16,597 bases of DNA from Clostridia bacterium (GTDB taxonomy: Bacteria; Bacillota; Clostridia; Oscillospirales; Acutalibacteraceae). Positions 10,885 through 14,511 of the stretch are shown piece by piece. Made by a program: the position numbers and the translations under genes. The notes below the pieces were generated by a model. It was given only the letters and a program-made list of their open reading frames with translations. It searched no databases and was not told the origin of the DNA. Every line of letters begins with the position of its first letter. Position 1 is the stretch's first letter. The stretch covers positions 1 through 16,597 of the forward strand of contig JAGAAE010000007.1 of NCBI GenBank assembly GCA_017615405.1, written 5' to 3'.

Positions 10885-11748
10885 TCAGGGGACAAAAGAG
10901 CAAATCGGGTTTATCTGTTTTTGGGCGCCGGTGCGGGCGGTCGGCTTTGGTTTGGGTATTTTTATCGTGTATTCGATGCAGTCTTCCTTCTCGACCACGT
11001 CTGAATATGCCGAAATTCCCGAATTATTAAGGGTCTTTATCAACTTTGAAAGACTGTTTGAAAATATTCTGACGTCGCAGGCGACGCTTTTTCTGCCCGT
11101 AAACGGCTCCTCGTTGCTCGATTTCGGCATAGACATCGGCAGGATAAAGCTTTGAAGGGTCTCTTTCGCTTTTTCGGGGGTCAAGGACAAAGAGACGATC
11201 TTTTCGATGAAATCAAGCTGTTTTTCCTCAGGGACCATCGAAACGATAACGGCATATTTTTCGTCAAGCCCCGCCGAAACGAGCTTTTTTCTGACCTGAT
11301 CGCCGAGCGACAGAAGATTTATTCTGTTAAGAAGCGAGGAGATCGACATCCCCGTTTTTTCGGCTATTGTTTCGTAGTCAACGCCGAAGCGGTTGGAGAT
11401 CCTTTTAAAAAGCTCCGCCTGCTCAAAATAATCGGGCGAGATCCGGTTCAGATTTTCCGAAATCGAGATAAGCGAGGCTGACAGATCGTCGGCGTTTATC
11501 AGAATACACGGAACGCGCCTAAGTCCGACCGTAATTGCGGCCTTGAGACGTCGGTTGCCCGAAACGACCTCAAATCTTTTTAAGGAATTTTTCCTTATTA
11601 TTAACGGCTCTATTATTCCGTTGGCAACGATGCTGTCGGCAAGGGGCTTTATCGAAAGGACGTCGGAGGGAGAGTTTATGGGGAACATAGGTGTCATGAT
11701 TTTTTCGGGTCTTAGAAACAACAATCGTTTGTCGTAAAAGTTTGACAC
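10885..11748 (-). CDS. parB: ParB/Spo0J/Noc-family chromosome-organising protein
   Basis: From the chosen GTG the protein has 287 residues. The N-terminal ParB domain (about 14-110) has the ADSIVANGIIEPLIIR segment, the motif-II equivalent G64-NRRLKA and ENLNR (98-102). A helix-turn-helix follows (about 124-145, DYETIAEKTGMSISSLLNRI). ParB and Noc proteins form CTP-dependent clamps on parS or NBS sites. Here the usual GERR is GNRR, replacing the glutamate linked to CTP hydrolysis. A TTG at 11799 would add 17 residues, but GTG 11748 has AAGGGAAGG just upstream. Following RsmG suggests Noc, whose gene adjoins rsmG in Firmicutes. No ParA gene is seen. The product could be a specialised transcriptional relative. 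Confidence 0.85.
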   Translation of the reverse strand: MSNFYDKRLLFLRPEKIMTPMFPINSPSDVLSIKPLADSIVANGIIEPLIIRKNSLKRFEVVSGNRRLKAAITVGLRRVPCILINADDLSASLISISENLNRISPDYFEQAELFKRISNRFGVDYETIAEKTGMSISSLLNRINLLSLGDQVRKKLVSAGLDEKYAVIVSMVPEEKQLDFIEKIVSLSLTPEKAKETLQSFILPMSMPKSSNEEPFTGRKSVACDVRIFSNSLSKLIKTLNNSGISAYSDVVEKEDCIEYTIKIPKPKPTARTGAQKQINPICSFVP

Positions 11749-11779
11749 CTTGATCGCCTTCCCTTGACTTTCTGGTATA

Positions 11780-11808
11780 ATTATCGCAGACAAAAACAAA
11801 AAAGTAAA
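11780..11808 (-). promoter_or_regulatory. Candidate promoter for the ParB-like gene
   Basis: On the minus strand TTTACT (11808-11803) and GATAAT (11785-11780) are 17 bases apart, matching four and five of six consensus bases. Transcription would begin near 11773 and give a short leader to GTG 11748. It sits between the mnmA-rsmG terminator and the ParB start, which implies separate transcription despite the gene adjacency. Confidence 0.45.
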
Positions 11809-11843: not shown

Positions 11844-11872
11844 AAAAAACGCCTTTTTAGAGGGCGTTTTTT
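11844..11872 (-). terminator. Intrinsic terminator overlapping the rsmG stop
   Basis: On the minus strand AAAAAACGCC (11872-11863) pairs with GGCGTTTTTT (11853-11844) around a nine-base loop, followed by a run of T (about 11842-11835). The stop codon TAA (11859-11857) lies in the loop, so the upstream arm encodes the last residues of the protein. Confidence 0.85.
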
Positions 11873-13641
11873 GCTATTTTCGCGGCGTTTCGCGGGTATT
11901 TTGTCGGAGTTTGCGATATCTTTTTTGAAATAATGAAGGTTCTTTGTTCTTCTCCGGTAAGTGTTTCGCATATTATTTCGGGTTTTTCACATCCGAGGAT
12001 CTTTATGGCGTTTTGCGCTTCGCTCGCTTCACGTTCGCCGGATGAACCCTTCATTGCTACGAAAAGCCCGCCTGTTTTTACGAACGGAATGCAGTATTCC
12101 GAAAGAACGGGAAGTGCGGCGACCGCCCTCGCGCAGGCGATATCGTATTTCTCCCGGTGTTCGGGGTCCCTGCCGCCGTCCTCGGCCCTTGAATGTACGG
12201 TGTTTGCCGTCAGACCGAGCTCGGTCAAGACCTCGTTTAAAAAGTTGATTCGTTTGTTAAGACTGTCAAGCAGGGTCAGGTTTATATCGGGTCGGGCGAT
12301 TTTAAGAACAAGCCCCGGGAATCCCGCTCCCGTGCCGACGTCTATTATCGCGGCGCCTTGTTTGACCTTTACGTTTTTAAAAAACAACAGGCAATCGTAA
12401 AAATGCTTATATAAAACCTCTTTCGGCTCGGTTATTGCTGTTAGATTTATCTTTTCGTTCCATTCTAAAAGAAGGTTTCCGTAAAGGTTTAACCGGTCAA
12501 GCGCCGCATTGTCAAGGCTTAATCCGAAACCATCGCATAACGGCAGGATCTCTTTAACGTTAAAATCTATCATATCAGTATCCTTTTTGATTATTCCGCC
12601 TCCGACGACGATATCGCCGTCGTAAAACACCGCCGACTGCCCGGGTGCCGGCGCCCTTTGAGGCGTATCGAATTCGACGAGCACCTCATCGTTTGATAAC
12701 GGATGAAGAACAGCGGGCTGTTCTTTATGGCGATAGCGAAGCTTTGCAAAGATCCGGATATCGCCCGAAAGGTTGTCAAACGGGATAAAGTTAACGTTTT
12801 TAACGACAATGTTTTTATAGAAAAGATTTTCCTCGTCGCCTAAAACGACGGTGTTGGTCTTTGCGTCCTTGCTTAAAACGAACTGCGGTTTTCCGAGCGC
12901 GATCCCGAGCCCTTTCCTCTGCCCTATCGTGTAGTGAAGCTGACCTTTATGTTTGCCGAGAACAGTGCCGTTTATATCGAGATAGTCGCCCGCTTTCGGG
13001 CAGATCCCAGCGGATCTTTCGATAAATCCGGCGTAATCGCCGTCGGGGACAAAGCAGATATCCTGGCTGTCCTTTTTCCGTGCGTTTAAAAAACCGTTTT
13101 CCTCGGCAATTTGCCGAACCTCTTTTTTGCTGAGTCCTCCGAGGGGGAAAAGGGTGTGCTCAAGCTCGGCGGGTGTCATCTGATAAAGAACGTAACTCTG
13201 ATCCTTCGTTTCGTCAAGACCTTTCTTTAAAAGATAACGGTCGCCGGATTTTTCTATTACGGCATAATGTCCGGTCGCTATATGATCGCATCCTAAAACT
13301 TTTGCTCTCTCATAAAGTCTGCCGAATTTCATATATTTGTTACAGTCGATGCAGGGGTTGGGCGTTTCGCCCGAAAGATAACTCTTTATAAAGCGGTCGA
13401 TAACCTCTTTTTTGAACTCCTCGCGGTAGTTGAAAACGTAGTAGGGAATACCGAGCCGACAGGCGACACTCTTTGCGTCCTCGACGTCCGAAAGCGAGCA
13501 ACAGGTCTTTTCGGCGGTTTCGCCGATATCGCCGTTGTCATAAAGTTTCATTGTGCAGCCGATACATTCGTTATCCCTGCTGAGCAGATACGCGGCTACC
13601 GAGGAATCGACCCCTCCGCTCATTGCAAGCGCAATTTTCAT
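11857..13641 (-). CDS. mnmA-rsmG: MnmA-RsmG fused frame: tRNA 2-thiouridylase plus 16S rRNA G527 methyltransferase
   Basis: One uninterrupted 594-codon frame encodes two complete enzymes. Residues 1-356 are MnmA, which makes 2-thiouridine at tRNA wobble U34: PP-loop SGGVDSS (8-14), catalytic cysteines C100 (NPCIDCNK) and C196 (SQDICF), and a C-terminal end at VVGGGII. Residues 357-594 are RsmG (GidB), which makes m7G527 in 16S rRNA: LLEWNEKINLTAIT, HFYD, and the SAM loop VGTGAGFPG at 435-443. Both parts have normal lengths. The start ATG 13641 is served by AAAGGTGG at 13654-13647; a GTG at 13650 overlaps that site. An in-frame ATG (12573-12571) after AAAAAGGA could start RsmG alone. An extra A in the A5 run would put TGA just before it, so a lost stop, a sequence error or recoding must be considered. 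Confidence 0.85.
   Translation of the reverse strand: MKIALAMSGGVDSSVAAYLLSRDNECIGCTMKLYDNGDIGETAEKTCCSLSDVEDAKSVACRLGIPYYVFNYREEFKKEVIDRFIKSYLSGETPNPCIDCNKYMKFGRLYERAKVLGCDHIATGHYAVIEKSGDRYLLKKGLDETKDQSYVLYQMTPAELEHTLFPLGGLSKKEVRQIAEENGFLNARKKDSQDICFVPDGDYAGFIERSAGICPKAGDYLDINGTVLGKHKGQLHYTIGQRKGLGIALGKPQFVLSKDAKTNTVVLGDEENLFYKNIVVKNVNFIPFDNLSGDIRIFAKLRYRHKEQPAVLHPLSNDEVLVEFDTPQRAPAPGQSAVFYDGDIVVGGGIIKKDTDMIDFNVKEILPLCDGFGLSLDNAALDRLNLYGNLLLEWNEKINLTAITEPKEVLYKHFYDCLLFFKNVKVKQGAAIIDVGTGAGFPGLVLKIARPDINLTLLDSLNKRINFLNEVLTELGLTANTVHSRAEDGGRDPEHREKYDIACARAVAALPVLSEYCIPFVKTGGLFVAMKGSSGEREASEAQNAIKILGCEKPEIICETLTGEEQRTFIISKKISQTPTKYPRNAAKIAKNAL
12571..12603 (-). promoter_or_regulatory. MnmA-RsmG junction: internal ribosome site and possible slippery sequence
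   Basis: On the minus strand the order is GGAGG (12603-12599), ten bases, AAAAAGGA (12588-12581), seven bases, ATG (12573-12571). AAAAAGGA with that ATG is a normal start signal for RsmG. In the MnmA frame the run reads C AAA AAG; slipping back one base leads at once to TGA (12577-12575). GGAGG is also part of the codons for the conserved MnmA glycines, so it may be incidental. Confidence 0.5.
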
Positions 13642-13669
13642 AAGATCCACCTTTTTTTAATATAATGTA

Positions 13670-13698
13670 ATTATAGCATATTTTAACGGGATAAACAA
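13670..13698 (-). promoter_or_regulatory. Promoter for mnmA-rsmG
   Basis: On the minus strand TTGTTT (13698-13693) and TATAAT (13675-13670) are 17 bases apart, with TG one base before the -10 box (extended -10, TGCTATAAT). The leader to ATG 13641 would be about 20 bases. A second AT-rich stretch on the plus strand (TATAAT at 13661-13666) may belong to the divergent gene, but I found no matching -35 box for it. Confidence 0.65.
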
Positions 13699-13715
13699 CC
13701 TGAAAGGAATTTTTT

Positions 13716-13928
13716 ATGGAGAACAAGGAAATAAAGATACGGCCGTTTTTCGTAAAATGCGCCGTGATAGAGGCGATAACGGTCGGGCTGATAGTTTTAA
13801 CGGTGCTGGCGATCAGCCTTTTCAGCAAAACCCATAAGAAGAAAATGAAGAATTGGTATGAGCGATACGTCCTTGAAGACACGTCGGCGGACGAGGTCAT
13901 ATCGGGAGAGGATACCTATGAGGTTTAG
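13716..13928 (+). CDS. Small single-pass membrane protein upstream of the M50 protease
   Basis: This 70-residue protein is not a family I recognise. It has a short basic N-terminus, one membrane helix at about 13-36 (CAVIEAITVGLIVLTVLAIS), a basic stretch KTHKKKMKNWYERY, and an acidic C-terminus DTSADEVISGEDTYEV. The ribosome site is AAAGGAA (13703-13709) before ATG 13716. The end overlaps the M50 protease gene by 11 bases, so the two are co-translated. Positive residues after the helix suggest the tail is cytoplasmic, but the N-terminus is also basic, so topology is uncertain. A partner, inhibitor or substrate of the protease is plausible from context alone. Confidence 0.72.
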   Translation: MENKEIKIRPFFVKCAVIEAITVGLIVLTVLAISLFSKTHKKKMKNWYERYVLEDTSADEVISGEDTYEV

Positions 13929-14511
13929 GATTTTCGGCACGCAGGTTTATGTTTCTTTCCTCTTTTTTGCCGTTATAACCGTTATGCTTGCGTTTGACAG
14001 AACGGGTTACTGCCTGCCCTGCCTTTGCGCCGCCGCGTTTCACGAAATCGGACACCTTTTCGCAATGTGGATATCCGACTGCCAGCCGAAGGCGATCCGT
14101 CTTGTCCCGGCAAGCGTCAGTATAATAAGCGACTTTCCGCGTAAGAAATACGGAGAGTTTTTTATAGCCCTGTCGGGTCCGCTCTTTAATATCGTTTTGT
14201 TTTGCTCGCTTATTATCAATTACAGAATGACCGCAAGCGAAATATCCTTTAAATACGCGGTAATAAGCCTTGTTATCGGGCTTTTTAATCTTCTGCCGGT
14301 AAAGGGACTTGACGGCGGAACGATACTTATGCTCATCATCGAAAAGGCGGCGGGCAGCCGTGAAAAGGCGGAGGCGGTAACCAAAATCATAACCGTTATC
14401 ATAGGGCTTTTGCTCCTTTTTGTCGGGGCGTTTTTGATCATAGGCGGCAGGATAAATATCTCGATAATCATTATGGGACTTTATATTCTTATCTGCGGAT
14501 TTTTAAGGTGA
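13918..14511 (+). CDS. M50-family site-2 protease (SpoIVFB-like)
   Basis: This 197-residue polytopic membrane zinc metalloprotease cuts substrates within or near the membrane. The zinc motif is H42-E43-I-G-H46 in AAAFHEIGHLFAMW. ALSGPLFNI (84-92) and the third zinc ligand D132 in NLLPVKGLDGGT match SpoIVFB, whose zinc aspartate is followed by DGG. About five to six helices are visible, and the last two (about 155-195) end right at the C-terminus. No PDZ or CBS domain is present, so it is a minimal S2P. An upstream in-frame ATG at 13858 would add 20 charged residues within the preceding gene; ATG 13918 has GGGAGAGGA at 13904-13912. Sporulation or stress roles are inference. Confidence 0.88.
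   Translation: MRFRIFGTQVYVSFLFFAVITVMLAFDRTGYCLPCLCAAAFHEIGHLFAMWISDCQPKAIRLVPASVSIISDFPRKKYGEFFIALSGPLFNIVLFCSLIINYRMTASEISFKYAVISLVIGLFNLLPVKGLDGGTILMLIIEKAAGSREKAEAVTKIITVIIGLLLLFVGAFLIIGGRINISIIIMGLYILICGFLR

Follow-up and report, generated by a model that had tools for sequence, protein, structure and literature searches.

The described enzymes closest to the protein considered here are MnmA (TrmU) of E. coli (2der) and RsmG (GidB) of B. subtilis (1xdz). Its first part resembles E. coli MnmA in a match over the full length, in the PP-loop and in both catalytic-position cysteines, and its second part resembles GidB in a match over residues 5-231 of 238 (E 1.2e-55) and in the SAM loop. 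Unlike in MnmA proper, DTD and RsmG replace the usual MnmA ending in the assembly from which the window (the whole stretch of DNA analyzed, 16597 bases) is taken. No paper naming an MnmA-RsmG fusion in its title or the opening of its abstract was found, and the accessible passages of PMC4014445, PMC3936742 and PMC10219651 describe none; a supporting table of PMC4014445 is said, in the part available, to mark some fused genes. As set out below, the window very probably holds two ordinary, tightly packed genes that were joined by an indel of assembly or sequencing, or by a strain-level allele, and not an evolved bifunctional enzyme.

The window is an entire contig (C3) in an assembly of 214 contigs and 64.5% completeness. 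The following features of the locus were considered:

13650-13715, minus strand: short region preceding mnmA; 13686-13659 resembles a promoter (9 of 12; a match to the consensus only)
12583-13641, minus strand: mnmA body, tRNA 2-thiouridine(34) synthase, residues 1-353 (PF03054, PF20259, PF20258, TIGR00420, NF001138)
12574-12588, minus strand: junction, an AAAAAGG run followed by GATACTGAT minus its first G; DTD linker in the joined frame
12580-12588, minus strand: probable rsmG ribosome-binding site, AAAAAGGAT, with 7 bases from AGGA to ATG; function predicted from sequence
11857-12573, minus strand: rsmG, 16S rRNA G527 N7-methyltransferase, 238 aa plus stop, own ATG at 12573-12571 (PF02527, TIGR00138, 1xdz)
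10885-11799, minus strand: parB/noc-like gene downstream of rsmG (PF02195, PF17762)

The 594-codon MnmA-RsmG frame that a preliminary description of this DNA had reported, without its strand, is present on the minus strand, where 13641 to 11857 reads as a single open frame of 594 aa plus stop (597 aa if a GTG nine bases upstream serves as start); the plus-strand translation of 11857-13641 contained 17 stops in the one frame read. The motifs named in that description (the SGGVDSS PP-loop, C100, C196 and VGTGAGFPG) were all recovered in the translation. The joined protein consists of a full MnmA (residues 1-353), a DTD linker and a full RsmG (357-594), K353 being the last MnmA-homologous residue and residue 357 the methionine of RsmG itself. 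TIGR00420 matched residues 1-351 over model positions 1-351 of 351 with 349.1 bits (curated cut-off 236.95), NF001138 scored 417.7 bits (cut-off 284), and E. coli MnmA matched residues 2-353 (E 8.3e-74). C100 and C196 align with the cysteines of ILC and ICF in E. coli MnmA, and we take them to be the catalytic-position cysteines of MnmA. Thus, the full-length model above its cut-off, the PP-loop SGGxDS and two cysteines at catalytic positions, which together mark a member of the MnmA family, are all present. The RsmG domain was recognized by PF02527 at residues 383-556 and by TIGR00138 at 385-557 (168.5 bits, curated cut-off 99.5), with the SAM loop VGTGAGFPG in place. In an alignment of 56 rows, those containing RsmG only were 16-21% identical to the first row and look misplaced. 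Judged by these matches, a joined frame containing two complete enzymes is no chance open frame.

How the two genes came to share a frame is apparent at the junction. The previously described A run at 12584-12588 was confirmed, as A5 on the coding strand and T5 on the plus strand; two Gs at 12583-12582 follow it on the coding strand. Compared with the closest junctions, those of the relatives G002 and G028 (GAAAAGGGATACTGA), the window (AAAAAGGATACTGA) is one base shorter, and the missing base falls into the A/G run (AATCAAAAAGGATACTGATATG in the window, AATTGAAAAGGGATACTGATATG in G028). One base fewer in this run puts the mnmA TGA out of frame, so that reading continues into rsmG. The ancestral end of mnmA (..KGY TGA) is still contained in the junction of the window, one frame off; the mnmA stop is lost through a change of frame, the stop codon itself being unmutated. 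The change has spared the ATG of rsmG and the purine-rich stretch just ahead of it; of the six relatives with this gene order, five have a comparable stretch at that place, and G061 differs. With its own ATG and the probable ribosome-binding site intact, RsmG could continue to be produced on its own.

AAAAAG resembles known slippery runs, of which A AAA AAG is a known heptamer. Programmed -1 frameshifting on C AAA AAG, by which one mRNA would give both MnmA (ending KKGY-stop) and MnmA-RsmG, fits the fact that frame -1 after AAAAAG reads GGA TAC TGA. However, the heptamer of the window differs from the known one in its first base, and frameshifting would be superfluous in the relatives, whose mnmA stops are in frame; this explanation is hardly credible.

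The relatives were searched in 70 genomes of the genus, the one containing the window included. Directly upstream of rsmG and on the same strand, mnmA was found in seven of them (the window's own, G002, G028, G060, G061, G083 and G084); the remaining 63 either had their listed mnmA and rsmG matches apart or lacked one of the two. Comparison of the junction DNA of all seven showed that mnmA has its own stop in each of the six relatives, at offsets of -4 to +3 bases relative to the start codon of rsmG: it overlaps this ATG by four bases in G061 (-4), stands directly before it in G084 (0), and is separated from it by one base in G002 and G028, two in G060 and three in G083. The last MnmA residues are IIEKGY (G002, G028 and G083), IIEEGF (G060), IIEKGEN (G084) and IIKQ (G061). 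In G083 and G084, mnmA and rsmG even share one frame, parted by a single stop. This spacing would fit a gene pair that is probably translationally coupled. The exact joined junction, sought with a degenerate but narrow pattern that demands the residues of the window itself, occurred in one of the 70 genomes, the window's own. The prospect that relatives among the Clostridia share the fused junction was not borne out either: in 148 genomes of the class, the sole listed match spanning both enzymes was again the window's own, and the few listed matches that pass the junction, to residue 382-392, do so via two to four stops.

An unjoined MnmA was found much closer to the window than these relatives. 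The MnmA part was searched against ∼5.8 billion proteins (scores were computed for the 7999 candidates with the most words in common, and the best 120 were considered). The best match, P0121, comprises 355 residues and stems from a contig of 2265 bases (compared with 16597 for the window); it is identical to the MnmA of the window over 353 of 353 residues, continues with GY, and ends. P0121 thus very likely represents the same species, as assigned by this identity, with mnmA ending normally, although it is known as protein only and the ending could in principle be the work of a gene caller that tolerates frameshifts. Its end, KKGY-stop, would fit either six As or a third G in the run. The next best matches (P0122, P0123 and P0124) were 78-79% identical and also end in KGY, and the longest MnmA match among the best 120 of the 7999 scored measured 415 aa. 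For the RsmG part, the best match among the best 120 of 8000 scored was 82% identical, and RsmG of the same species was absent from these 120. Further copies from the species could exist, since one of the searches may leave out records of the same or a very near genome. A separate mnmA stop in close relatives, proposed earlier as an observation that would refute the fusion, was therefore seen in P0121, at the protein level, and in all six relatives with adjacent genes. Nor is the joined form consistent within the species, as P0121 (a protein only, its species assigned by identity) ends separately.

Fused forms were also sought among RsmG-bearing proteins of ∼327-1040 aa, a range that leaves free RsmG out. 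PF03054, the MnmA domain, was found in none of the 120 listed of 206 such proteins; the window's own joined protein was likewise absent from those 120. With separate genes in six of six relatives, one junction in 70 genomes and none of 120 listed of 206 proteins, a joined frame common to more than one lineage was not found.

These results bear on the possibility that MnmA-RsmG is a real bifunctional enzyme, its joined frame fixed in the species and its linked domains acting as one on the decoding machinery. Neither domain is truncated, and the joining point falls between the end of the MnmA barrel (PF20258 stops at residue 351) and the start of the RsmG domain. In addition, a C-terminal addition to MnmA can apparently be tolerated, because in B. 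subtilis an MnmA-YrvO fusion with C-terminal mCherry replaced the lost MnmA, albeit in an engineered setting (PMC10219651, in the passages available). Against such an enzyme stand the identical MnmA (353/353) that ends separately, the separate genes of all six adjacent relatives, the lack of a fused homologue among the matches listed, and the exact junction that (by the narrow pattern) no other of the 70 genus genomes contains. A conserved bifunctional enzyme was rejected on the six relatives, on P0121 and on the lack of a fused homologue among the matches listed, and a fixed one is very improbable. The preliminary description offered two outcomes, a bifunctional protein or an mnmA stop lost very recently. 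The first is not supported and the second is, with the addition that the loss may be an assembly error.

The reading that remains, of two ordinary genes joined by a single base, comprises two cases, for which the odds are about equal. In the first, to which we give an even chance, the missing base is an indel of assembly or sequencing beside a homopolymer run. The position next to the A5 run, the fragmentary state of the assembly (214 contigs, 64.5% complete) and the existence of an unjoined form with 100% protein identity over 353 residues (P0121) all speak for an error of this kind. In the second, which appears a little less probable than that, the one-base difference is a natural strain-level allele, real, recent and nearly neutral, which would give a fused protein plus free RsmG. 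The site in the last codons of mnmA is where an indel does the least damage, as expected of a real one that is tolerated, and the start signals of rsmG are unharmed; on the other hand, P0121, very likely from the same species, is unjoined.

To gauge the quality of the assembly, 61 of its 214 contigs (312,915 bases) were searched by tblastn with 791 ORFs of G083, each of at least 130 aa. Frameshift candidates numbered zero in 103,339 covered coding bases, located in 28 of the 61 contigs, at a recall of 111 of 164 planted one-base deletions; the procedure is blind to gene ends and left the window's own event unflagged. Since no frameshift was detected in 103,339 bases at this recall, indels are not rife in the assembly, and the notion of a generally indel-ridden assembly was rejected. 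The scarcity of apparent indels elsewhere counts against an assembly error, and the 103 kb of aligned coding sequence free of frameshifts (recall 111/164) count in favor of a strain allele. Nonetheless, a rate of one indel per some tens of kilobases is compatible with the result, and the short contigs of the sample (2.6-16.6 kb in the 61 of 214) leave room for consensus errors.

In the favored reading, mnmA and rsmG are two separate, tightly packed genes in the order mnmA - rsmG - parB/noc; the A/G run differs by one base where the last mnmA codons lie, and reading passes the TGA and enters rsmG. Should the allele be real, ribosomes translating mnmA would produce a single chain of 594 aa, MnmA-DTD-RsmG, in which neither catalytic domain is truncated, and RsmG could also be made on its own from its ATG; MnmA would thiolate U34 of tRNA and RsmG would methylate G527 of 16S rRNA, as they do when separate. 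The joining itself appears meaningless. That the allele is real and expressed, yielding a bifunctional MnmA-RsmG alongside free RsmG, and thus a fusion at its birth via a single indel, is improbable; a real allele would be a small, clean case of an indel fusing packed genes while sparing the start of the second. An apparently new bifunctional RNA-modification enzyme hangs on one base of one draft assembly, and MnmA-RsmG should not, as matters stand, be entered as a novel domain architecture.

The adjacency of the two genes has a history of its own within the genus. In a tree of 34 MnmA rows, the window grouped with G002 with strong support, and the remaining five mnmA genes that adjoin rsmG fell into another group; the MnmA of G002 has 355 aa and the window/G002 lineage carries TCC, compared with 339-342 aa and no TCC in the other five (the mnmA loci of the two lineages are window:12583-13641, L031, L032, L049, L149, L150 and L151). 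Because MnmA of two lineages adjoins an rsmG that is 75-79% identical to that of the window in all six relatives, the comparison suggests a replacement of mnmA in situ, beside rsmG; independent origins of the adjacency are the alternative. Loss of MnmE/MnmG as the reason for the adjacency was rejected, as mnmG and mnmE were present in all six relatives: mnmG scored above the cut-off in six of six and mnmE in six of six plus the window's own genome, both placed elsewhere than at the rsmG locus in the six. A full mnmG was not found in the window's genome, which is uninformative at 64.5% completeness.

Upstream of mnmA, the six adjacent relatives have an ORF of 625-629 aa with a common start, identified by Pfam as a radical SAM protein (PF08497) in G002 and G084, the two of the six that were run. 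Unlike in these relatives, this gene is absent ahead of mnmA in the window (13650-13930), where a plus-strand ORF of 70 aa, with its ATG at 13716 and extending to 13928, had no Pfam match. Promoter-like sites numbered nine in the 3.3-kb region, compared with a mean of 3.6 after shuffling. Downstream of rsmG, the ParB family was confirmed by Pfam in the window and in G084 (the two run), and ORFs with a ParB-like start, judged by that start, follow rsmG in the loci of several other relatives. The ParB-like gene tends to stay downstream of rsmG while the upstream gene varies, being mnmG, a PF02390 methyltransferase or mnmA (L035, L034, L033, L047, L163, L049 and L149). The PF02390 methyltransferase, presumably TrmB, was identified by Pfam in G010 and by a similar start in G001 and G007.

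Compared with other arrangements, rsmG lies behind mnmA in the window and behind mnmE and mnmG in two genomes of the genus, G034 and G004. Its sharing of a frame with a neighbor also has counterparts: among the 120 listed of 206 RsmG-bearing proteins, four combine RsmG with MnmG/GidA (PF01134) in one frame (P0001, P0002, P0004 and P0111) and six with ParB_N (PF02195; P0007, P0009, P0054, P0075, P0094 and P0102), P0075 being encoded on a 423,849-base contig. The listed MnmG-RsmG and RsmG-ParB proteins, which are candidate fusions or lost stops, resemble the protein of the window in that RsmG shares a frame with the product of a neighboring gene; in the window, the partner is MnmA instead.
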